From Acidobacteriota bacterium (GTDB taxonomy: Bacteria; Acidobacteriota; Vicinamibacteria; Vicinamibacterales; CAVVIG01): 48,086 bases of DNA. The stretch is taken from the NCBI GenBank assembly GCA_003222535.1, contig QHWJ01000380.1, positions 20,752 to 68,837 on the forward strand. Reading direction: 5' to 3'. A program made the position numbers and the translations under genes. This document shows, piece after piece, positions 3,739 through 39,628 of this stretch (position 1 is its first letter; the number at the start of each line of letters is the position of its first letter). Below the pieces are notes generated by a model, which saw only the letters and a list, made by a program, of their open reading frames with translations, searched no databases and was not told the origin of the DNA.

Positions 3739-4946
3739 GCGAACATGCGCGGCAGCCGTCCGGCATCTTGATGGTGACCGGTGCATATTTTCCGGAGTTG
3801 AGCGGCGGCGGCCTGCAGTGCAAGGCGACGATTGATGCACTCCACGGAGCGCTCCGGTTCACTGTGCTGACGACCAGCACGGATGCGTCGCTGCCGGTGG
3901 TCAGCGAGGTCGACGGAACGCTGGTCTACCGCGCGAACGTCGACGTCACGAGCCGCTGGTCGAAGGCGAAGGCGGCGTGGGCGTTCCTCTGGTCCTTCCT
4001 CAAGCTGAGCGGCTCGTTTGATATCGTCCATCTGCACGGCTTCTCTCAGAAATCCACGCTGCTCGTGCTGCTCGCGAAGATGCTCGGCAAGTCGATCGTG
4101 CTGACGCTGCATACCGCCGGGCAGGACGAGCCTGCCGGGGTGCGGGCGCGTGGGCGTTTGGCGTACTGGGCGTACTCGCACGTTGATCTCTTCATGGCCG
4201 TCAGCCCGCCGCTCGCGGACCGGCTGGAGGACGCGGGTTTCAGTGCTTCGCGCGTGTGCCGCGGAACGAACGGCCTCGACATGGCGCGCTTTCATCCCGC
4301 CGAACCCGGTGAGCGGATCAGGCTGCGGCGGACATTGGCCCTGCCCGAAAGCGGTGCGCTGATTCTGTTCGTCGGGTTCTTCTCGCTCGACAAAGGAGCA
4401 CACGTGCTCTTCGAAGCCTGGCGGCGGATAGCGAACGGCGTGGGCGCCGGATCGTCACTGGTGTATGTCGGATCGACCAGGTCCCGGTACTATGAGATCG
4501 ATCCGGCGCTGGCGGACCGCATTCGCGACGCCGCCGGCCGCGAAGGCCTGGCAAACCGCATCGTCTTTGTCGAGGAGACGCGCGTTATCGATCAGTACTA
4601 TCGGGCGGCAGACGTGTTCGTGTTTCCGTCGCGCCGCGAGGCGTTCGGCATGGCGCTCGTCGAGGCCATGGCCTCGGGGCTGCCGTGCATCGCGTCGCGG
4701 CTGCCTGGTGTCACCGATGACATCGTGAAGGACGGCGAGACCGGGTTGCTGGTCGAACCCCACGACGCGAACGCGCTGGCGGCGGCTCTGGCGCGTGTGC
4801 TGACCGATTGCGCTTTTGCGAGTCGGCTCGGTCGGGCGGGCCGTCAGGCTGTCGACCCGCGCTTTGCCATCGAACGGACCGCGCACCTGACGCTGGACGC
4901 GTACCGACGCGTGTTGAACACGCCGACCCTGTCAGTCACGTCCTGA
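3735..4946 (+). CDS. GT4 glycosyltransferase
   Basis: A 403-residue canonical GT4 enzyme. Seen: an N-terminal MVTGAYFPELSGGG glycine-rich acceptor loop, DIVHLHGFSQKS, CRGTNGLDMARFHP between the two Rossmann lobes, ILFVGFFSLDKGAH, and a textbook donor motif in VFPSRREAFGMALVEAMASG (E-x7-E). It is coupled by 4-base overlap to the gene before. Its stop TGA at 4944-4946 shares its last base with the start of the gene after, so these enzymes are probably made in stoichiometric amounts for one glycan. Family assignment is secure; the sugar is not known. Confidence 0.92.
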   Translation: MSEHARQPSGILMVTGAYFPELSGGGLQCKATIDALHGALRFTVLTTSTDASLPVVSEVDGTLVYRANVDVTSRWSKAKAAWAFLWSFLKLSGSFDIVHLHGFSQKSTLLVLLAKMLGKSIVLTLHTAGQDEPAGVRARGRLAYWAYSHVDLFMAVSPPLADRLEDAGFSASRVCRGTNGLDMARFHPAEPGERIRLRRTLALPESGALILFVGFFSLDKGAHVLFEAWRRIANGVGAGSSLVYVGSTRSRYYEIDPALADRIRDAAGREGLANRIVFVEETRVIDQYYRAADVFVFPSRREAFGMALVEAMASGLPCIASRLPGVTDDIVKDGETGLLVEPHDANALAAALARVLTDCAFASRLGRAGRQAVDPRFAIERTAHLTLDAYRRVLNTPTLSVTS

Positions 4947-6790
4947 TGATGCAGCGCCGTTCAGACATTCTGTGCGTCTCGTCGATCGACTGGGATTTCA
5001 TCTGGCAGGGTCACCAGGAGATCATGTCGACGTTGGCGGCACAGGGACACCGGGTGCTCTTCATCGAGAACACGGGCGTCCGCCCGCCGAGCATGCGCGA
5101 CCTGCCGCGTGTGCGCCAGCGGCTGTCCAACTGGTGGCGGAGTACCAAAGGCTTCCGGCAGGTGAGCGACAACCTGTTCGTCTACTCGCCGCTCATCGTG
5201 CCGCTGCCGTACTCGCGACCAGCCCGATGGGTCAACCGCTCGCTGCTGCTCCGGAGCCTCCGCCGCTGGATGGCCGCCACCGGGTTCAACCGGCCGATCA
5301 CCTGGATGTTCCTGCCGACGCCGCTCGCGCGGGATCTCGTGACGCGTCTCGACAGCGAGTTGACCATCTACTACTGCATCGACGATTTCGCGTCGTCCTC
5401 GCCGGAGGCGAGACGCATCTCGGCGAGCGAAGAGCAGCTGTTCCGGGACGCGGACCTGATATTCGTCACCTCGGATCAGCTGCGCCAGCGCGCCGCCCGC
5501 TTCAGCAACCGGGTGCACCTGTTTCCGTTTGGCGTGAGCCTCGAGGGATTCGAGCGCGTCCGCGCGTCAGACGACCCGCTGCCGGCCGACATCGCGGCGA
5601 TTCCCAGGCCCATCGTGGGTTATGTCGGCGGGCTGCATCAGTGGGTGGATTGCGAGTTGCTGTGCGAGGTGGCCCAGCGCATGCCGGAGGCGTCGATCGT
5701 GCTCGTCGGGCCCGAGCAGGCCGACATGTCGGCCCTGCGCACGTTTCCGAACGTCCATCTGCTGGGCCAGAAGCCACACGCGGACGTGCCGCGCTACGTC
5801 AAAGCGTTCGATGTCGGCCTCGTGCCCTACCGGCTCAGCGAGTACACCGCCAACGTCTATCCGACCAAGCTGAACGAGTATCTGGCGATGGGCACTCCGG
5901 TCGTGGCGACCAATCTCGCGGAAATCCGTCGCTTCAACGCCGACCATGGGGACATCGTGTCGATCGCGGGCACTCCTGAGGGGTATGTTGCGGCGATTCG
6001 TCGTGCCCTGCGACCGTCTTCCGACGCTGAGGGCGCGCGAAAGATCAGCGTCGCTCGCACCAACAGCTGGAGCTCGCGCATCGCGGAGATGTCCAAGTTG
6101 ATTGAGACGGCAATCGCGACGAAGGGATCCTCCGACACCGGCTGGGAAGAGACGCTGCGCCGCACGTACCGGGCCACGCGGCGGCGCGCCGCCGAAATCG
6201 TCGTGGGTCTGGCCGCGGTCTACCTGCTGCTGTTTCAGACCTCGATCCTCTGGTGGTCTGCGGGGCCGCTGAAGCTGTCGTCGCCGCCGGTGCAGGCCGA
6301 CGCGATCGTCGTCTTTGCGGGCGGCGTCGGCGAGTCGGGGCAGGCCGGTGGCGGCTATCAGGAGCGCGTCAAGCAGGCGATCGACTTGTACAAGGCCGGC
6401 TACGCCAAGTATCTCGTCCTGTCGTCCGGGTATGTGTACTCGTTTCGTGAAGCCGAGGTCATGCGCGCCCTTGCGCTCGACAACGGCGTGCCTTCGTCTG
6501 CGATCGCACTCGAATTGAAAGCGAAGAGCACCTATGACAACGTGCGTTTCGTGAAGGAGATCCTCGATGACCACCGCTGGACGAAGATTCTGCTCGTGAG
6601 CTCGCCGTACCACATGCGGCGGGCGGTGATGACCTGGCATCGGGAGGCGCCGGCCATCACGGTCGTGCCGACGCCGCCTCCGCAAAGCCAGTTCTACGAT
6701 CACACGCGCGGCGCCACCCTCGAGCAGATTCGCGGCATCGTGTGGGAGTACTTGGCGATATTCGCGTACTGGCGCCGCGGCTGGCTATGA
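4946..6790 (+). CDS. Fusion: GT4-like glycosyltransferase plus membrane-anchored DUF218 (YdcF/SanA/ElyC) domain
   Basis: A 614-residue two-domain protein. Residues 1 to about 390 form a GT-B glycosyltransferase (RVLFIENTG at the N-terminus; VGYVGGLHQWVD near 225; PTKLNEYLAMGTPVVATNL near 307-324). A hydrophobic segment follows at about 416-437. Residues about 449-614 match the DUF218 family: ADAIVVFAGG, SGYVYSFREAEVM, KSTYDNVRF and VSSPYHMRRA. DUF218 proteins such as SanA and ElyC act in envelope polysaccharide or lipid-carrier homeostasis; the exact chemistry is unsettled. The frame is open upstream to 4808, but I choose ATG 4946 because it overlaps the previous stop and begins a GT-like N-terminus. 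The fusion links sugar transfer to a membrane-proximal DUF218 unit. A separate DUF218 gene lies at 21019-21813. Confidence 0.9.
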   Translation: MMQRRSDILCVSSIDWDFIWQGHQEIMSTLAAQGHRVLFIENTGVRPPSMRDLPRVRQRLSNWWRSTKGFRQVSDNLFVYSPLIVPLPYSRPARWVNRSLLLRSLRRWMAATGFNRPITWMFLPTPLARDLVTRLDSELTIYYCIDDFASSSPEARRISASEEQLFRDADLIFVTSDQLRQRAARFSNRVHLFPFGVSLEGFERVRASDDPLPADIAAIPRPIVGYVGGLHQWVDCELLCEVAQRMPEASIVLVGPEQADMSALRTFPNVHLLGQKPHADVPRYVKAFDVGLVPYRLSEYTANVYPTKLNEYLAMGTPVVATNLAEIRRFNADHGDIVSIAGTPEGYVAAIRRALRPSSDAEGARKISVARTNSWSSRIAEMSKLIETAIATKGSSDTGWEETLRRTYRATRRRAAEIVVGLAAVYLLLFQTSILWWSAGPLKLSSPPVQADAIVVFAGGVGESGQAGGGYQERVKQAIDLYKAGYAKYLVLSSGYVYSFREAEVMRALALDNGVPSSAIALELKAKSTYDNVRFVKEILDDHRWTKILLVSSPYHMRRAVMTWHREAPAITVVPTPPPQSQFYDHTRGATLEQIRGIVWEYLAIFAYWRRGWL

Positions 6791-11232: not shown

Positions 11233-13137
11233 ATGTGCGGCATCTGCGGTGAGGTCTCGTTCGACCGGGCCCGGCCGGTGTCGGCCGACTCCGTGCGCGC
11301 GATGCGCGAACAACTCGTCCACCGGGGTCCGGACGCCCACGGCATCTTCGTGTCTCCGGACGGCATGGCCGGGCTCGGCTTCCGGCGGCTGGCCATCATC
11401 GACCTGAGCGCCGAGGCCAATCAGCCGATGTCCAGCCGGGACGGGTCGATCCACGTCGTCTTCAACGGCGAGATCTACAACTTCCGCGGGTTGCGCGCGG
11501 AGCTCGCCGCGCGCGGACGCGCGTTCCACACGCAGTCGGACACCGAGGTGATCGTGCGCCTGTACGAGGAGCGCGGCGCGGCATTCGTCGACGCGATCGA
11601 CGGCATGTTCGCCATCGCGGTGTGGGACGGCCGGCAGAAGCGGCTCATCCTGGCGCGGGACCGCGCCGGCAAGAAGCCGCTGTTCTACTACCGCGACGCC
11701 CGCCGGGTCGTGTTCGGGTCCGAGATCAAGGCCCTGTTCGCGCATCCGGAGGTACCCAGCAAGGTCGACGTTGCAGCCCTGCCGCCGTTTTTCTCGTGCG
11801 GCTACGTGCCGCATCCTGCAACTCTCTATTGCGGCATCCGCCAGCTCGACCCCGCATCGGTCATGACGGTCGATCCGGACGGCCGTGCGAGCGAACGCAC
11901 GTACTGGCGACTCGAGTTTCCCCCTGCGGGCTCACTGCCGGCCGTCGACGCACACGCTGCGCGCGACCGCGTGCGCGAGCTCGTCACGGCGGCCGTCGAC
12001 CGGCGGCTGGTCAGCGACGTGCCGCTCGGGGCGTTCCTGAGCGGAGGCGTCGACTCGACCGTCGTCGTCGGCGTCATGAGCCGTCTGACGCGCCAGCCGG
12101 TGAAGACGTTCACGATCGGCTTTGAGGGAGACGCGGCGTACGACGAGACCGCCGCCGCGCGGCAGGTGGCTGAACGCTTCAAGACGGACCACCACGAGTT
12201 CCGCGTCAAGCCGTCGGCCGTGCACCTCATCGATCGGCTGATCTGGCATCACGACGGGCCGTTCGGCGACTCGTCGGCCATCCCCACGTATCTCGTCTCC
12301 GAGCTCACGCGCCAGCACGTGACCGTCGTCCTCACCGGAGACGGCGGGGACGAAGTGTTTGCCGGGTACCTCCGCTTTCGCGCGGCGCTCGCGGCCGAAC
12401 GGCTGCCCAGGGGGACCGCCGCCGTGCTGGGCCAGGCGCTGCGCTTTCTGCCGGATGCGCCGAACGAGCGGCATCTTGTGGCACGCGCGCGCCGGTTCGC
12501 GCGGTTCATGAATCTGCCGCTGCTCGCGCGGGCGGCGCGATGGAACAGCGTCTTTCAGGATGATCTCGCGTCGTTCCTGCAGCCGGAATTCGCCGAGGGG
12601 GCCGAGGCCTTTGATCCGCTGGCACACCTCGGGTCCGAGCTTTGGGCGATCCGCGGCTCGTCACCGCTCAGCCAGCTCCTCGCGGCGAACTTCGCGTCGT
12701 ATCTGCCCGACGATCTGCTGGTGAAGACGGATCGCTCGACCATGGCGACCTCCCTCGAGGCGCGCTCGCCGCTGCTCGACACCTCGCTCGTCGAGTACGT
12801 CGCCACGCTGCCGGACGCCTTCAAGCTCCAGCGGGGACGGACCAAAGGGATCCTGCGCGACGCCTTCGCCGACCTCATTCCGCTGGCGATCGATCGACGT
12901 CCGAAAACCGGCTTCGGCGTCCCGCTCGACGCCTGGTTCCGCGGCGAACTCCGGGATTTCGTGCGCGACACGCTGCTGGCGCCGTCCGCGGCGTCACGGG
13001 AGTACCTGCGGCCCGTTCGTCTCCGCGAGCTCGTCGACGATCACCAGGCCGGCCGTGCCAACCACGGCCATCGGCTGTGGACGCTCGTCTGCTTCGAGCG
13101 GTGGCTGCAACTCCTGCCGGCGTGGCGCCGGCGATGA
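11233..13137 (+). CDS. asnB: Glutamine-hydrolysing asparagine synthase (AsnB-type amidotransferase)
   Basis: A complete 634-residue protein. The start MCGICGEV puts Cys2, the nucleophile of class II glutaminase domains, directly after Met. The glutaminase domain (residues 1 to about 215) shows HRGPDAHG and FNGEIYN. The synthetase domain shows the pyrophosphate loop FLSGGVDSTVVVG and LTGDGGDEVFAGY, then KTDRSTMATSLEARSPLLD and RPKTGFGVPLDAWF. Length and domain order match AsnB. Members in polysaccharide or exosortase-type loci probably amidate sugar carboxyls, so free asparagine may not be its product; this rests on context only. The partial gene at the window's left edge is a paralogue. Transcription probably starts just beyond the minisatellite. 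Confidence 0.95.
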   Translation: MCGICGEVSFDRARPVSADSVRAMREQLVHRGPDAHGIFVSPDGMAGLGFRRLAIIDLSAEANQPMSSRDGSIHVVFNGEIYNFRGLRAELAARGRAFHTQSDTEVIVRLYEERGAAFVDAIDGMFAIAVWDGRQKRLILARDRAGKKPLFYYRDARRVVFGSEIKALFAHPEVPSKVDVAALPPFFSCGYVPHPATLYCGIRQLDPASVMTVDPDGRASERTYWRLEFPPAGSLPAVDAHAARDRVRELVTAAVDRRLVSDVPLGAFLSGGVDSTVVVGVMSRLTRQPVKTFTIGFEGDAAYDETAAARQVAERFKTDHHEFRVKPSAVHLIDRLIWHHDGPFGDSSAIPTYLVSELTRQHVTVVLTGDGGDEVFAGYLRFRAALAAERLPRGTAAVLGQALRFLPDAPNERHLVARARRFARFMNLPLLARAARWNSVFQDDLASFLQPEFAEGAEAFDPLAHLGSELWAIRGSSPLSQLLAANFASYLPDDLLVKTDRSTMATSLEARSPLLDTSLVEYVATLPDAFKLQRGRTKGILRDAFADLIPLAIDRRPKTGFGVPLDAWFRGELRDFVRDTLLAPSAASREYLRPVRLRELVDDHQAGRANHGHRLWTLVCFERWLQLLPAWRRR

Positions 13138-13195: not shown

Positions 13196-15052
13196 ATGAT
13201 CTCCGCGATCGGTCTGCCGTTCCTCATGGCGCTGACGCTCTCGCTGGTGTGCGTCCCGCTCTGCCGTCTGGTCGCCCTCCGCCGCGGGTTTGTCGCCCGT
13301 CCTCGCGAGGATCGCTGGCACCGCCGTCCGGTCGCCCTCTTCGGCGGTGTCGGGATCGCGTTCGTCCTCTTCGCGTGTGTGGCCATCTTCGGCCTCACGC
13401 GCGAGCAGCCCGTCCTGGTGATCACGGCGTTGGCTATTTTCGTCACCGGCCTGGTCGACGATGTGCTCTCGCTCAAGCCGGCGACGAAGCTGATCGCGCA
13501 GATCGGGCTGGCCTCGGCGCTGCTGTTCTTCGGCTACCGCCTCAACTGGCTGGAGTCGACGACGCTCGACAGTCTGCTGACGCTGGTGTGGATTGTCGGC
13601 ATGACGAACGCCTTCAACCTGCTCGACAACATGGACGGGCTGTGCGCCGGCATCGCCATGATTGTCGGCGTGGCCCTGATGATTGATTTGCTGCCTGGCG
13701 CGGCAGGCACGCTGATGTTCTCCGACGTGCGGTATCTCGCGATTCTGCTCGGCGCGACCGGCGGGTTTCTCGTTTACAACCTGCACCCGGCGTCCATCTT
13801 CATGGGCGACAGCGGCAGCCTCCTGCTCGGCTTCAGCTTCGCCGCCGTCACGCTCAGCTCCGGCCGCCAGGCGCCCGGCCGATCCGACATCCTGTCGATC
13901 GTCGCCGCTCCGCTGCTCGTCCTCCTGATCCCGATCTTCGACACGACGCTCGTGACGCTCTCGCGGTGGTTCTCGGGCCGCCGCGCGTCACAGGGCGGCC
14001 GCGATCACTCGTCGCACCGCCTTGTGGCCATCGGGTTGTCCGAGCGCCGCGCCGTGGCGCTCCTCTGGGCGCTCGCCGCCGTCGGCGGCGGCCTGGGCGT
14101 CGTGCTCGACCGGTTCCACACGAGCTACTCGGCGATGGCCGCCGCCTTCACGTTCCTGGTGAGCATGGTCCTCTTCGCCGCGTATCTGGCCGGCATCCGC
14201 GTGTACGACGACGCCGATGCGCGGATGAAGCAGGGCACCTTGACGCCGATCGTCGTCGAGTTCATGTACAAGCGGCGCGTGGCCGAGGTCATGCTCGATT
14301 TCTGCCTCGTCACCGTCTGCTATTACGTCGCCTTCCGGCTGCGCTTCGAGGATCCCGAAGAGTTCATGAAGAACTTCACGATGTTCACGAGCTCGCTGCC
14401 GATCGTCGTGACGGCGCAGCTCGTTGCGTTCTTCGTCGTCGGCGTCTATCGCGGCGTTTGGCGCCATTTCGGCCTGATGGACACGCTCGCCATCGCGGGC
14501 GGCGTCTTCCTCGGCACCTGCAGCGCGGTCCTCGTCATCCTGTTCATCCCGTACTTCTTCACGTATTCGCGCACGGCGTTCGCGATTTACGCCGTGCTGC
14601 TCCTCATGGGTGTAACCCTCTCGCGCGCATCGTTCCGGCTCGTCAGTGAGTTCCTGCAGCGCCAGCGCCAGTCGGGACGCCGCGTCGTCATTTACGGTGC
14701 AGGTGACGCCGCCGGCCTGGTGATTCGCGAGCTGCTGGGGCCCGATGCCAGAGACGCGCGGATTCTCGGCTTCATTGATGACGATCCGCGAAAAGCGGGC
14801 ATTCGCGTGATGGGCTACTCGGTGCTGGGCGGGTACTCCGCCGTGACGGTGCTGATCAAGGCCGCCTCGGTGGACGCCGTCGTGGTCAGCGCCCGGACGA
14901 TGCCGCCGGAGCGCCTGAACAACCTCCAGGTGCTGTGCGCCGAGTGTGGCGTCGGGCTGACGCGCCTGCGCGTCGGCCTCGAAGAAATCGTGGACGTCGA
15001 AGCCGGCTCCGACAAGCCGGCCGCAGGCGTCATCCGGCAGTTCGGCTCCTGA
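13196..15052 (+). CDS. Fusion: WecA/MraY-type polyprenyl-phosphate phosphoglycosyltransferase plus CapD/WbpM-like N-terminal module
   Basis: A 618-residue protein. Residues 1 to about 345 form a polytopic phosphoglycosyltransferase that starts lipid-linked glycan synthesis. Seen: GLVDDVLSLKPATKL (85-99, the DDxxD-like Mg motif), NAFNLLDNMDGLCAG (138-152), FMGDSGSLLLGF (202-213) and the cytoplasmic RDHSSHR loop (269-275). From about 357 the sequence changes: four more membrane segments, then a soluble Rossmann fold with VVIYGAGDAAG (497-507) and FIDDDPRKAG. This is the membrane plus CoA_binding_3-like region found in front of CapD/FlaA1 epimerases or WbaP transferases, yet no epimerase or transferase domain follows; it simply ends. 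The frame is open upstream to 13055, but that part is basic and non-membrane, so I choose ATG 13196. Confidence 0.9.
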   Translation: MISAIGLPFLMALTLSLVCVPLCRLVALRRGFVARPREDRWHRRPVALFGGVGIAFVLFACVAIFGLTREQPVLVITALAIFVTGLVDDVLSLKPATKLIAQIGLASALLFFGYRLNWLESTTLDSLLTLVWIVGMTNAFNLLDNMDGLCAGIAMIVGVALMIDLLPGAAGTLMFSDVRYLAILLGATGGFLVYNLHPASIFMGDSGSLLLGFSFAAVTLSSGRQAPGRSDILSIVAAPLLVLLIPIFDTTLVTLSRWFSGRRASQGGRDHSSHRLVAIGLSERRAVALLWALAAVGGGLGVVLDRFHTSYSAMAAAFTFLVSMVLFAAYLAGIRVYDDADARMKQGTLTPIVVEFMYKRRVAEVMLDFCLVTVCYYVAFRLRFEDPEEFMKNFTMFTSSLPIVVTAQLVAFFVVGVYRGVWRHFGLMDTLAIAGGVFLGTCSAVLVILFIPYFFTYSRTAFAIYAVLLLMGVTLSRASFRLVSEFLQRQRQSGRRVVIYGAGDAAGLVIRELLGPDARDARILGFIDDDPRKAGIRVMGYSVLGGYSAVTVLIKAASVDAVVVSARTMPPERLNNLQVLCAECGVGLTRLRVGLEEIVDVEAGSDKPAAGVIRQFGS

Positions 15053-24632: not shown

Positions 24633-24709
24633 CGATGATGATCGAGGCTGGACTATATCATCGCGCTGACGGCGATCACGCTGTGGTACCATCCGAGAAA
24701 CCAGCCTCC
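24633..24709. promoter_or_regulatory. Divergent intergenic region between GT4 and YfhO/ligase fusion
   Basis: These 77 bases must carry the promoter of at least one of the two divergent genes if the large gene starts at 24710. GACTATATCATC at about 24650 is the only AT-rich stretch and could be a -10 element on either strand. The large gene could instead start at 24635, which would leave almost no spacer. Confidence 0.2.
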
Positions 24710-27700
24710 ATGGCGCCATTCTCGCGACGCGCGCTTGGCACCTGCGCGCTGTACGGCATTCTCAGCATCGTTTTCTGCCTGCCATTCGATTCCGCTCAGC
24801 ATTTCGAGTATCGCCAGCTGCCGTTCTGGATGTGGCACCTCCCGCAGGTCGCGATTCTCAGCCCGGCGTCTCTGCTGAGCGCGATCGTACCGCTCTCATT
24901 GGGCATCGAGATCAACGTCGTTCTGCATTACTGGGTCGCCTTCCTCGGCATGCATCTGCTGTTGACCCGCGCGATCGGGCTGTCGTTCCTGCCGTTCGTC
25001 GTGTTCGCGGCGTCAGTCTTCACGCTGGGCGGCGCGATGGCAATGCACCTGGCGGTCGGAGACCAGACGGTTCTCCCGGTATTCTATCTGCCGCTGCTGA
25101 TGTTCTTCGTGTATCGGACGGCACGGACCGGGGCGCTGCGTGACGCGTTGTTTGCCGCGGGGATCCTTGCGCTGGCCATCTACAACGGTGGCTTTCAGAT
25201 TGTTCCAATGGCGCTCATGGCGGTTGGCGCGTGGGCGGCATGTGTCGCTGTGGGCGCGCGCGACTGGCGGCCGATCGCGATCGCCGTGCTGGTCGTCGTG
25301 TGCGCCGCGGCGTACGCCGGGCCAAAGCTCGCGCCGGTGGCGGAATTCGTGTCGGGCGATCAGTTCCGCCGGACACTCGAGCCGATCGACCATCCCGATC
25401 GGATGACGCCTGACATGATCTGGCGCGCGTACACCGATTCGTCGCTCGGCGCGCAATCACACGTCTCGGGGGCGCAGCGGCACGGCTGGTGGGAATACGG
25501 CAATTACATCGGCCTGCTCGCCGCGAGTGGCATCGGCCTGAGCGTCCTCTGGCCCCTTGTCGTTCCGTCGACAACACCGCAGCGATCGTTCGCCGTCATG
25601 TTGGCGCTCATGGCTGTGTGGTTCCTGGTGGTCTCGGCCGGCGAGTTTCACCCGTTTGCGCCGGCGCTCGGCCTTGCGCGTCTGCCGCTCGTGTCGTCGT
25701 TTCGCATTCCCAGCCGGTACACAATCGCCTTCGGACTGTTCGGTGCGCTCACGATCGGCGCGGCGGCGCGAGCCGCCGCCCGGCTGCTGCCAGCGACGCC
25801 GCGGCTGCAGCGCGCGGTCGCTGTCGTGTGCGCGATTGCGGTCGCGGAGCTCGTGTTCGTCAACCAGCGGCATTTCCGGAACGCGGCGTCGCAGACGCCA
25901 GTCGTGAACGAGATCCAAACCGCGGACGCCGAACGCCCGCGCGTCTGGTCCGACGGCACGGCGAAGGTCACCGACGTCGTCCCGACATTCAACGGCGCGC
26001 GGTTCTCGGTGATCGGCGGCTACGAGCCGTCGAAAGTGTTCTTGAACCAGCGATACGCGCCCGGCTGGCAGAGCTCCGCCGGAACGGTCCGTCCCGATCC
26101 ACAGACGGACGGCAGGATGTTTGTGCAGGTGGCCGCCGGACAGACCGGACGCTTCTCGTTTTCTTTCGTCCCACCGGGATTGACCGCGGGCATGGTGCTG
26201 CTCTTCGTTGCAGTGGCGGTGTCGGCGCTCGTGTGGAATCGCCGGTGGTCGCCTGTCGCCTTCGAGCGCACGGCCGGCACGCGTCAAGCGGCGGAGCGGA
26301 CCCAGTTCGCCGATCGCGCCGAGCGCGTCACCAAGAACGTCGTCCTGTGGTCGATGGCCGGTGCCATCATGGCCAGGGCGTTCGTGGGTGGCCCCAATCA
26401 GACGACGCTCATTGTCATCGTGATTGGCAGTTTCGCGATCGCAAGGGCCACCAGCGCGCGCTGGGAACATGCCGACGGCATCGTGCTGGCGTCGATGTAC
26501 GTTGCGCCGGCTGTGTTCTCGCGCTTCTGGGTGCACGACGGAAGCGTCTATTCAATGTACCTGGCCGCGGGCCTGCTGGGCGCGATCTGGCCGCGATGGT
26601 CGCGGCGCCAGTGGAGCCTGCCAACGCCGTGGCGAGTACCGCTGGTCGGCTGGGCACTCACGGCGGCGGTCGGTTGGCCGATCATCGCGGCGCGCGAGGT
26701 CGATTTCCATCCCGAGCTGGCAGGCATTCTCGATATGCCGAATTCCACCCTCGGCATCAGCGCCCGGGGGGCAATCGCCATCGCCGCGGACGCTGCGGCA
26801 ATGCTGATGCTCGGGATCGTGTGGCTCGATTGGCTGTTCGAACGGTACGCCAACGATGGACCGCGGTTCCGCCGAACCATCATCCTGCCGCTGATCGTGA
26901 GCGGCTGCATCGCGTCCGTGGTCGCCGCCTACCAACTGTTCGGCGACATGACGTTTTTGAACCCCGGCTGGGCCGAATTCCATCGCGCGAGCGCAACGAT
27001 GGTGGACGCCAACGCCTTCGGCATGTCGGCCGTGCTTTGCAGCGCCGAGATGATTGCACTCGCGTTCGCGGCCCAGTCGCTGCTCCGTTCACCCGTCTCG
27101 GGCGACCACGTGCCGCGGCGGCACGGTCGACGACCTCTGGTGCTGGCCATCACCTCTGTCGCTGCGGCAGTGCTCTTGGTGGCGTTTAGACATACGGGAC
27201 CGGTCCTCCGGCTTGGGTGGATCCTTCCAACGGCCTCCCTTGAATCGATTGCGGGCTTCACGAAGCAGATGCTGTGGGTCCGCGCCGGGTACGGCACGGC
27301 CGCCGTCGAAATGATCCGTTCGAATCCGTGGTTCGGCGTGGGCATCGGCTCCTTTCCGTTGATCGTCGGTGATTACCCGTTCTCGCATCTCGGAGGGCCG
27401 CTGGCGCCGGACAACGCGCAGAACTGGATTCGGCATAACCTTGCCGAACTGGGGCTGATCGGCAGCATCGGATGGATTCTCTGGACAGTCGTGCTGCTCA
27501 TCGCGCTCTTCCAGCGGTCGGGCGCGTGGCGGGACCGTCGCGCCACGATCGTTGCCGGCACGTTCGTGGGAGTTGTGGTCGTTTCACAGGTCGGCATGCC
27601 AACACAGAACCTCGCCGTGGCGATCACGTTCTGGACGTTCCTCTTTTGGCACTGCTCGTATCGATGGCCGACCGCGGCCCCGCCTGGCAGGGGATTCAGC

Positions 27701-28186
27701 GAGTCGTGGAAATGGGCGCTGATGGGCGTATTGCTGGCAACGTTCGCCGCCGGCACGCTGCGGACGAGCCTGACGACGCTCCGGCCGCCGATGCGGGCGA
27801 GACACGCCGGATGGAACTACGACTACGGTTTCTATCTGCCCGAGCGGACCGCGGACGGTGAAGAATACCGATGGACGAAACAGAACGCCGTCGCGGTGAT
27901 TCCGGCGGCGAGCCGCGCGGTGAAGCTGATCGTCTGGGCGGTGCGCGCGGACGCCCACCATCCGGTGATGGCGCGCGTCTGGCACGACGAGCAGCTCGTC
28001 ATCGACACCGTCCTGCACGATAACCGGCCGGTGTCGGCAGACGCCGTCATCGACAAGAATCCGCAGTGGTTGATGATCAGGACGTATCTGGATCGCACGC
28101 TGCCCGAATCGCAGCCGGACCTCGGTCTGGCGGTTCAGTGGACGTTCGCCGGCGCTCCGACTCATGCGAGCACCTCGGTCCGATAG
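24710..28186 (+). CDS. Giant membrane fusion: YfhO-like half plus O-antigen ligase/polymerase-like half
   Basis: About 1158 residues. The first half (to about residue 540) is a polytopic membrane protein of YfhO/PTPS-related type: LHYWVAFLGMHLLLTRAIG, FTLGGAMAMHLAVGDQTVLP, LPLVSSFRIPSRYTIAFGLF, plus an extracytoplasmic part with VIGGYEPSKVFLNQRYAPGW. After a polar linker (about 530-560) a second polytopic unit follows with the Wzy_C signature WFGVGIGSFPLIVGD and NWIRHNLAELGLIGSIGWI (about 900-960). The last about 110 residues are soluble: YDYGFYLPE, GEEYRWTKQNA, PAASRAVKLIVWAVRA. They resemble the tail of the ligase at 37442-39628. It probably handles polyprenyl-linked glycans on the outer face. 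I chose ATG 24710; upstream ATGs at 24635/24638 remain possible. Confidence 0.85.
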   Translation: MAPFSRRALGTCALYGILSIVFCLPFDSAQHFEYRQLPFWMWHLPQVAILSPASLLSAIVPLSLGIEINVVLHYWVAFLGMHLLLTRAIGLSFLPFVVFAASVFTLGGAMAMHLAVGDQTVLPVFYLPLLMFFVYRTARTGALRDALFAAGILALAIYNGGFQIVPMALMAVGAWAACVAVGARDWRPIAIAVLVVVCAAAYAGPKLAPVAEFVSGDQFRRTLEPIDHPDRMTPDMIWRAYTDSSLGAQSHVSGAQRHGWWEYGNYIGLLAASGIGLSVLWPLVVPSTTPQRSFAVMLALMAVWFLVVSAGEFHPFAPALGLARLPLVSSFRIPSRYTIAFGLFGALTIGAAARAAARLLPATPRLQRAVAVVCAIAVAELVFVNQRHFRNAASQTPVVNEIQTADAERPRVWSDGTAKVTDVVPTFNGARFSVIGGYEPSKVFLNQRYAPGWQSSAGTVRPDPQTDGRMFVQVAAGQTGRFSFSFVPPGLTAGMVLLFVAVAVSALVWNRRWSPVAFERTAGTRQAAERTQFADRAERVTKNVVLWSMAGAIMARAFVGGPNQTTLIVIVIGSFAIARATSARWEHADGIVLASMYVAPAVFSRFWVHDGSVYSMYLAAGLLGAIWPRWSRRQWSLPTPWRVPLVGWALTAAVGWPIIAAREVDFHPELAGILDMPNSTLGISARGAIAIAADAAAMLMLGIVWLDWLFERYANDGPRFRRTIILPLIVSGCIASVVAAYQLFGDMTFLNPGWAEFHRASATMVDANAFGMSAVLCSAEMIALAFAAQSLLRSPVSGDHVPRRHGRRPLVLAITSVAAAVLLVAFRHTGPVLRLGWILPTASLESIAGFTKQMLWVRAGYGTAAVEMIRSNPWFGVGIGSFPLIVGDYPFSHLGGPLAPDNAQNWIRHNLAELGLIGSIGWILWTVVLLIALFQRSGAWRDRRATIVAGTFVGVVVVSQVGMPTQNLAVAITFWTFLFWHCSYRWPTAAPPGRGFSESWKWALMGVLLATFAAGTLRTSLTTLRPPMRARHAGWNYDYGFYLPERTADGEEYRWTKQNAVAVIPAASRAVKLIVWAVRADAHHPVMARVWHDEQLVIDTVLHDNRPVSADAVIDKNPQWLMIRTYLDRTLPESQPDLGLAVQWTFAGAPTHASTSVR

Positions 28187-37441: not shown

Positions 37442-39628
37442 TCAAGGGCCCGTGACGGGCTCGCCGACCTGCACGCCCAGCACGCGCACATCCGAGCGTC
37501 CGCCGAACAGCGCGGCCGGTGACCACGTCGGCTCGGTGATGATGTCGATCCGCTGAAATGCCTCATCCTCCGGCAGGAGCGGGAGTCGCATCCGCACGTT
37601 GACCCATTCGTCGTTCGGGAGCCGGAGGCGATGGAAGACGCGGCCGCCGATGGCGATCGACACGTCGGTCGGCGCCAGATTCGAACCGACGTGGATCGCG
37701 CGCACCGGCAGATGGAGCTCGCGCGCGTTCAACGGGATGAAGAAGGTTGCGCGGCGGCTCGTCCACCGGAAGCGCTGCCCATCTTCCTGCTCCCAGTCGT
37801 AGAAGCCGAAGCTGAACCGGCCGAAGTCGATCGTCGCCATCTGCCGTTTCGCGCGAACCGGCACCGAAACCGCGAGCACGGCGATGACGGCACCGACAAG
37901 GACGTGGGCACCCCTAAAGGGGCGCCCTACGATCGATAAAGGGAGCCCTACGATCGATAAGGGGCGCCCTGCGATCAATAAGGGGCGCCCTGCGATCGAT
38001 AAAGGGAGCCCTGCGATCGATAAGCGGCGCCCTGCGATCGAAGCTGCGCGCGACGGGACATCCGGTGACGCGAGCGGCGGCTGCGCGTTGCCGTCCGCGC
38101 GCGCCAGCGCCACGCCGAGCAGCATCCAGAATGGGTACGCCACCTCCGCGACGAGCATCGGATGGCTCGTCATCCACGTCGCGACGAACGCGCCAAGGCC
38201 CGCAAGCGCTCCGACGAGCAGCCGGTCGCCGGGATCGGCGCCGGCGCCGCGAACGATGCGAATCGCGGCCACCGCCAGGAGCCAGACGAACGCCGCCAGC
38301 CCCGCCAGGCCGAGCTCGCCGCCGATCTGAAGGAAATTGTTGTGCGCGTTCTCGTGAAAGTAGAACCAGTAGATGGACGGGGGCATGAACCGGCCCGACA
38401 TCTCGAAGTACCGCCCGACGCCGACGCCGAAGATCGGCGCGCTCGCCATCATGCGGAGGCCGGTGACCATGAAGTCGGCGCGCATGCTGAGCATCCGCGA
38501 CGTCGACCGGGCAGGTGACGGCCGCGGATCGAGGCCGATCGCCAGCGCGGCGAGCAGCAGGGCGCCGGCCACGATCGCGCCGGCCATCGCCCCCTTCGGC
38601 GCGCGCGCGAGCCACAGCCGCCTGGCAGTCCCGAGGACGGCGGACTTCCGCCACGGACCGCTGACCGTCATCGCGACGACCCCGAGCGTGCCGATGACCG
38701 CCAGCACGGCCATGCGCGACCCGGTGATCCACATCGCGCTCAATATCAGCGCCGCGGCGGACAGCCACAGGCCGTGCCCTAGCGCCAGCCGCCTCGGCGC
38801 GCGCGGGTGGCGCCGATTCGCGGCGAAGGCGAGCGCCACCCACGCGGTCATCGCGAAGAAGGAGCCGGCGGCGTTCGCGTCGGCGACGTGCACGGTCATC
38901 CGGCTGAAGGCAAGGCGCCAGAAGAACTCGCGCACCGACGCCGCCTCGAGCGCCGTCGTGACGAACGTCTTGAGGGTCAGCGCCGCAGCAAGCGCGCCCG
39001 CGAGCCCGATGGCGGCAAACAACTGCGCCGGCCGCGCCACGCCGTCGCGCGCGTGCCGCGCGACAAGGAACGCGAGGCCGATTCCTTCGAGGAGCAGCGC
39101 GGCGTCGGCGACACCGGCGAAGGATCCTGGCGGTCCGACGAGGTAGTCGCGCGTGAGGAACACAAGAACGTCTCGAAGGAACGGCCAGGGCGCATGCGTG
39201 CCGGCCTGCATCACCTGCAGCATGACGGCGGCCGAGGCGCACGTCACGGCGGAGAACACGCCGGCGGCCGGGCCGAGGGCGGGCCGCTGGCCCTCGAGCG
39301 GCGTGCGGGGCGGCCGCGCCGCGGCGATGATCGCGCCCGACAGCACCACAAGCACGAGCGCCTCCGCAGAGCGCACCGGCGGAGCATCGAAGGCCACGAA
39401 CAGCCATGAAGCGAACGGGACGATGACGATCACGGCCGTGATGGCCCAGTCGGGCCTCGCGATCGCCGTGACCCAGAGGGCCACCAGCAGGATGCGGAAC
39501 CCGAGGGGAATGGCCGGCGTGCTGAGCGCGGAAAGGAGTGGGATCAGAAGGGCGATCCCGCCGAGCCGGCGGGTCACGGCTCGCGGCCTTCGACCAGACC
39601 GGGCCCGGCCCTTCGACTCACCGCTCAT
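37442..39628 (-). CDS. O-antigen ligase/polymerase (Wzy_C-type) with C-terminal beta domain
   Basis: A polytopic protein of up to 728 residues. Membrane segments begin at about residue 25 (GIALLIPLLSALS). The Wzy_C region has APIFGVGVGRYFEMSGR and HENAHNNFLQIGGELGLAGL, including the periplasmic His typical of WaaL-like ligases. Residues 530-571 are seven-residue repeats (SIAGRPL/SIVGLPL) encoded by a 21-bp minisatellite, just before a last membrane segment. The soluble tail (FGFYDWEQEDGQRFRWT, IPLNARELHLPVRAI) matches the tail of the giant fusion at 24710-28186. ATG 39628 lies inside a REP hairpin, so the first 17 residues (MSGESKGRARSGRR...) derive from or adjoin the repeat. GTG 39577 may be the original start. 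Confidence 0.9.
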   Translation of the reverse strand: MSGESKGRARSGRRPRAVTRRLGGIALLIPLLSALSTPAIPLGFRILLVALWVTAIARPDWAITAVIVIVPFASWLFVAFDAPPVRSAEALVLVVLSGAIIAAARPPRTPLEGQRPALGPAAGVFSAVTCASAAVMLQVMQAGTHAPWPFLRDVLVFLTRDYLVGPPGSFAGVADAALLLEGIGLAFLVARHARDGVARPAQLFAAIGLAGALAAALTLKTFVTTALEAASVREFFWRLAFSRMTVHVADANAAGSFFAMTAWVALAFAANRRHPRAPRRLALGHGLWLSAAALILSAMWITGSRMAVLAVIGTLGVVAMTVSGPWRKSAVLGTARRLWLARAPKGAMAGAIVAGALLLAALAIGLDPRPSPARSTSRMLSMRADFMVTGLRMMASAPIFGVGVGRYFEMSGRFMPPSIYWFYFHENAHNNFLQIGGELGLAGLAAFVWLLAVAAIRIVRGAGADPGDRLLVGALAGLGAFVATWMTSHPMLVAEVAYPFWMLLGVALARADGNAQPPLASPDVPSRAASIAGRRLSIAGLPLSIAGRPLLIAGRPLSIVGLPLSIVGRPFRGAHVLVGAVIAVLAVSVPVRAKRQMATIDFGRFSFGFYDWEQEDGQRFRWTSRRATFFIPLNARELHLPVRAIHVGSNLAPTDVSIAIGGRVFHRLRLPNDEWVNVRMRLPLLPEDEAFQRIDIITEPTWSPAALFGGRSDVRVLGVQVGEPVTGP
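37916..38041. repeat. 21-bp in-frame minisatellite inside the ligase gene, six units
   Basis: Six 21-bp units of the form TAAGGGGCGCCCTGCGATCGA (plus strand) start at 37916 (first base lost), 37937, 37958, 37979, 38000 and 38021. Units differ by one to three bases (AAGGGAG versus AGGGGCG). Because 21 is a multiple of three, unit number can change without breaking the ligase frame. Each unit encodes seven residues such as SIAGRPL. Confidence 0.92.

Follow-up and report, generated by a model that had tools for sequence, protein, structure and literature searches.

A polytopic phosphoglycosyltransferase fused to a CapD/WbpM-type module in Acidobacteriota and other bacteria

Why should an enzyme that would initiate surface glycan synthesis carry at its end the membrane and Rossmann module of a sugar dehydratase? 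The question is raised by one gene of an acidobacterial genome, lying in a stretch of 48,086 nucleotides that we analysed as a whole and call the window (Table 1). The gene is open from its ATG to its stop and its product matches two Pfam families, PF00953 (Glycos_transf_4) at residues 73-221 (E 4.9e-29, 101.8 bits against a curated cut-off of 27) and PF13727 (CoA_binding_3) at residues 424-565 (E 2.5e-12, 47.6 bits against a curated cut-off of 25). No PF02719 dehydratase, no PF02397 monotopic catalytic domain and no third Pfam match was found in the 618-aa protein, which stops after the module, so that the dehydratase or transferase that usually accompanies PF13727 is absent. The original prediction had described both modules in a single chain, with the catalytic partner of the second one missing, and both points were borne out, residues 345-360 being free of any stop or frame break. 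Among the NCBIfam models, the first half matches those of WecA/MraY and the second half the N-terminal parts of those of large PGTs (phosphoglycosyltransferases; TIGR03025, residues 366-583), all below their cut-offs; the model for WecA proper (TIGR02380, ECA) scores 97.3 bits against a cut-off of 326.05.

Table 1. Features of the fusion gene and of its upstream neighbour; positions are those of the window
Feature	Position	Strand	Basis and remarks
Asparagine synthase / glutamine amidotransferase, upstream	11233..13137	+	Pfam/NCBIfam; also at -1 in 7/66 scanned relatives
Whole gene, 618 aa, polytopic PGT + CapD/WbpM-type module	13196..15052	+	ORF; Pfam; homologues begin at same residue
PGT half, residues 1-332, 11 modelled transmembrane helices	13196..14191	+	Model; MraY Z about 30; PF00953
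Catalytic Asp pair D88-D89	13457..13462	+	Invariant in 48 sequences
NAFNLLDNMDG motif, residues 138-148	13607..13639	+	N138, A139, F140, N141, L142, D144, N145, M146, D147, G148 invariant, L143 nearly, in 48 sequences
GDSGS motif, residues 204-208	13805..13819	+	G204, D205, G207 invariant in 48 sequences
DHSSHR cytoplasmic loop motif, residues 270-275	14003..14020	+	D270, H271, S273, H274, R275 invariant in 48 sequences
Linker joining both halves, residues 333-359	14192..14272	+	Low model confidence; pLDDT 51-54 for residues 341-360
Four-helix membrane bundle, residues 360-490	14273..14665	+	Model helices 360-383, 387-415, 427-450, 459-490; D368, Y418, F462, R477 invariant
Cytoplasmic Rossmann domain, residues 491-600	14666..14995	+	Model; 3nkl Z 14.0; WbaP 8t53 Z 11.0 over module 358-593
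Rossmann loop GAGDAAG, residues 501-507, Ala for third Gly	14696..14716	+	Alignment, motif comparison
GFIDDDP motif after strand 2, residues 525-531	14768..14788	+	D528, D529 invariant; common to CapD-type modules

The same architecture, which it had been suggested to seek in other genomes, was found there: one alignment covers both halves in 39 of 60 relatives, and both are also covered in the 80 loci that we fetched as the best of at least 555 confirmed relatives in the genome collection, except in a few that are cut by contig ends or that have no Rossmann part. Since both halves are spanned in relatives and in other genomes, chance, an assembly join and a frameshift are ruled out, and the combination is an intact, real fusion. 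The best 80 of the at least 555 relatives are filed under Thermodesulfobacteriota (29), Myxococcota (20), Acidobacteriota (19), Actinomycetota (2), Nitrospirota (2), Chloroflexota (1) and Pseudomonadota (1), with six without a phylum, a breakdown that is rough as many of the titles are old MAG names. Within the Acidobacteriota, the phylum of the window, at least 33 of 199 genomes encode the same fusion over its full or nearly full length. The fusion is common to many soil and sediment bacteria, chiefly Acidobacteriota and Desulfobacterota-type genomes, and a relative (L054) occurs in a cultured species, Desulfosarcina alkanivorans.

On sequence and predicted fold, the protein is a polytopic PGT of the WecA/WbpL kind. 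The signature of these enzymes, an Asp pair, NxxNxxDG-type and GD motifs and a cytoplasmic loop containing His, is present and invariant or nearly so in an alignment of 48 sequences drawn from several phyla, which, together with the PF00953 score, upholds the WecA/MraY-type assignment first proposed. The model (pLDDT 85.6, pTM 0.83) has 11 + 4 helices plus a Rossmann domain; the PGT helices span residues 2-30, 50-64, 72-91, 95-111, 122-145, 147-169, 174-193, 204-219, 232-259, 283-306 and 311-332, and residues 1-308 of the model match the fold of MraY and DPAGT1 (Z about 28-31). With 11 PGT helices the linker is cytoplasmic, as the module requires, and the Rossmann domain and the catalytic loops lie on the same side of the membrane in the model. 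If the N-terminus is taken as outside, as in WecA, 23 Lys/Arg fall on inner loops and 8 on outer ones, the C-terminal domain excluded, which fits the positive-inside rule.

The second half proved to be of the CapD/WbpM type, as had been claimed, by tree, identity and motif. Its identity to CapD-type modules is about 26-34% (mostly 28-34%) and to the modules of large monotopic PGTs 21-29% (mostly 23-26%); the fusion motif YGAGDxG...GFIDDDP resembles YGAGDAG...GFVDDDP of the CapD type, the monotopic type having AGxGxLG...GFVDDR. In the tree a 100/97 branch sets the fusion modules, and with them L126, a fragment from the window's own genome, apart from other PF13727 proteins, most of which come from the same order. 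Tree, identity and motifs all disfavour a descent of the module from WcaJ/WbaP-type enzymes. The closest structural match, of residues 493-597, is 3nkl, deposited as UDP-quinovosamine 4-dehydrogenase, and module residues 358-593 match residues 11-243 of WbaP (8t53) with a large rmsd of 11.7 A, so that the placement of bundle against Rossmann domain differs from that in WbaP. The Rossmann loop, described as intact in the original prediction, is only partly so: Ala506 stands for the third Gly of GxGxxG. The family has GAGxGG as its consensus, and the nearest relatives have DG, GA, AS or AA at residues 505-506.

In some longer relatives the frame runs straight on from the module into a further catalytic domain, a glycosyltransferase in L142 (2230-5358) and L045 (7950-11111) and a polysaccharide deacetylase in L042 (7998-10658); a fused dehydratase was looked for in these proteins and one of these two domains was found instead. 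In L043 (7740-9422, with the same end as L029) and L052 (2968-4500), which share 57.5% identity, the PGT half and the bundle are kept and the protein ends just before the Rossmann domain; a search of the DNA flanking L043/L029 and L052 gave no remnant of it, and these loci indicate that some lineages can do without the domain. In one MAG (L068, 7725-9708) the fusion gene is interrupted within the module by a frame shift, which probably reflects a sequence error or decay of the copy.

In another set of fusions (L144, 2006-3964; L145, 2025-4070; L147, 1763-4036) the PGT half is of the classical WecA type, with an HxHHRL loop, and groups with ordinary WecA-type enzymes in the PGT tree. A single origin of every fusion, as traced by the PGT halves, is rejected (AU test, p 7e-5, L138, a contig-end fragment, being treated as unfused), and the module tree joins all fusion modules, a separate second group reaching p 0.08 and not being rejected. 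Taken together, these trees imply either that the pairing arose twice or that one fusion had its PGT half swapped, and do not decide between the two. As to the route, the unfused locus L140 (G029) has a 382-aa PGT followed by a 651-aa CapD-type gene (PF02719 + PF13727), the two sharing a frame and being separated by one TGA. On Pseudomonas plasmids, too, a gene annotated as glycosyltransferase family 4 is followed by one annotated as nucleoside-diphosphate sugar epimerase/dehydratase; loss of the stop and of the dehydratase would yield the fusion. Elsewhere in the window's own genome (8.06 Mb in 450 contigs), PF00953 is matched at two places and PF13727 at five. Two contig-end fragments of this genome, L138 (3-728, contig C6) and L126 (16180-17415, contig C117), resemble the two parts of another fusion gene, PGT and module respectively, and each groups with L147 in its respective tree. 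In the same phylum, WecA-type enzymes at L150 (1113-2720), L152 (958-2538), L153 (1579-3180), L154 (1663-3330) and L157 (1021-2667) are extended at the C-terminus by some 200 conserved residues that match no Pfam family; this extension may be a further regulatory domain attached to polytopic PGTs.

Judged by the genes around it, the context of the fusion gene is that of a polysaccharide locus. A GT2 glycosyltransferase and the asparagine-synthase-like amidotransferase precede it in the window, and several GT4-type glycosyltransferases, DUF218 proteins and Wzy_C/O-ligase-like proteins surround it. One ORF (4808-6790, start and frame putative) has a glycosyltransferase group 1 domain and then DUF218, and two large membrane proteins within 15 kb (24635-28186 and 37442-39628) have weak to clear matches to Wzy_C (O-antigen ligase).

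What could the module do in such an enzyme? UMP is also the product released by polytopic PGTs. The PGT half would transfer a sugar-1-phosphate to undecaprenyl phosphate with release of UMP, a UDP-HexNAc being the probable donor; the bundle and Rossmann domain of CapD/WbpM/PglF, placed behind the 11th PGT helix without the dehydratase, would pair two chains as in WbaP and may tune initiation by binding a uridine nucleotide, either UMP or a UDP-sugar, and such UMP feedback would keep undecaprenyl phosphate from being overspent. In a screen of 20 nucleotides the isolated WbaP domain was stabilised by UMP, UDP and UTP, full WbaP was inhibited by UMP (IC50 4.1 uM), the domain builds the dimer, and the authors propose one UMP feedback common to every carrier of the domain (PMC10942596). 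In favour of this account of the fusion, the pairing is seen with two PGT lineages, the catalytic motifs are invariant and the module matches WbaP 8t53 and 3nkl. With the behaviour of the WbaP domain and the release of UMP by polytopic PGTs considered together, the same control brought to a third fold is the most economical reading. Against it we count Ala506, a position that varies in the nearest relatives, the loci that have no Rossmann domain, the large rmsd, and the C-terminal beta-hairpin that forms the domain-swapped dimer of WbaP, which does not appear in the single-chain model, where the final residues have pLDDT <50. The original prediction had suggested that nucleotide or NDP-sugar sensing could control initiation, a proposal that leans on the WbaP result. 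By analogy with WbaP, we give about even weight to the module being a uridine nucleotide/UDP-sugar sensor that aids dimerisation and provides feedback on initiation.

The module could instead be a docking platform that anchors sugar enzymes (a UDP-sugar SDR, the first glycosyltransferase) or a regulator near the PGT, sensing being secondary. The extra catalytic domains behind the module and the retention of the bundle in lineages that lack the Rossmann domain both speak for this, as does the proposal that the equivalent domain of Myxococcus EpsZ, which lacks the hairpin, takes part in a contact with the response regulator EpsW that would drive the active dimer (PMC12802240). The -1 neighbour also speaks for it, encoding an extended SDR of UDP-sugar type in 16 of 66 relatives (the nearest solved relative of one being UDP-glucuronate decarboxylase) and a GT4-type transferase in 14, at times with a 4-base overlap. 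Yet neighbours vary by lineage: many Desulfobacterota-type loci have LptF/G (12) or AIRS (10) in that position, and 7 of the 66 have an asparagine synthase; overall we consider docking rather unlikely. It is improbable that the module is only a relic of fused adjacent wbpL- and wbpM-like genes which lost its dehydratase and now just stabilises the membrane part. The unfused gene order of L140 and of the Pseudomonas plasmids, the relaxed third Gly and the lineages that have lost the Rossmann domain would all agree with a relic, but YGAG, GFxDD and the bundle residues are invariant or nearly so across several phyla. By mean column entropy the bundle (1.80) is also as well conserved as the PGT half (1.77), the Rossmann part being more variable (2.14).

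The nature of the ligand bears on a further alternative, that the Rossmann domain senses the NAD(H) redox state, as in Rex, and not uridine nucleotides. A fold comparison of residues 493-606 ranks Rex repressors near the top (Z 9.3-12.7), but the sugar-enzyme module 3nkl is closer, the ligand does not follow from having a Rossmann fold in common, and the WbaP counterpart responded to uridine nucleotides; we consider redox sensing very improbable. CoA was considered as a ligand too; its one connection is the family name, and no support for it was found.

Compared with the large monotopic PGTs WbaP, WcaJ and EpsZ, the fusion likewise joins a bundle and PF13727 to an initiating PGT with UMP as product, but PF00953, an unrelated polytopic fold, replaces PF02397 as the catalytic half, and the module is C-terminal instead of N-terminal, nearer to the CapD type and modelled without the hairpin. 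With the UDP-sugar 4,6-dehydratases CapD, WbpM and PglF it shares the sequence of the module, the motif YGAGDAG...GFxDDDP and the bundle, but it has no PF02719 dehydratase and a PGT stands before the module. From WecA, WbpL and TagO, which have the same fold, catalytic motifs and, as in WecA, 11 helices, it differs by carrying the module, as these enzymes are usually a catalytic domain only, and, in the main fusion lineage, by DHSSHR where they have an HxHH loop. A structural study of 2024 lists polytopic PGTs as 'PGT only' and finds the module shared by WbaP and PglF puzzling (PMC10942596), and we found no published description of a polytopic PGT fused to a CapD/WbpM-type module in the open-access papers searched.

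We tentatively suggest, at somewhat less than even confidence, that the family is a widespread third carrier of one UMP/UDP-sugar-responsive module that occurs on three unrelated folds (monotopic PGT, dehydratase and polytopic PGT), with the polytopic pairing repeated or its catalytic half swapped, and that this module is a general control part at the first committed step of surface glycan synthesis. A large natural family with the module on a third, unrelated fold offers an independent test of the role of the module. If the fusion enzyme is not controlled by UMP or a UDP-sugar, a role in assembly becomes more likely; if it is so controlled, the module would be a general regulator of undecaprenyl phosphate use.
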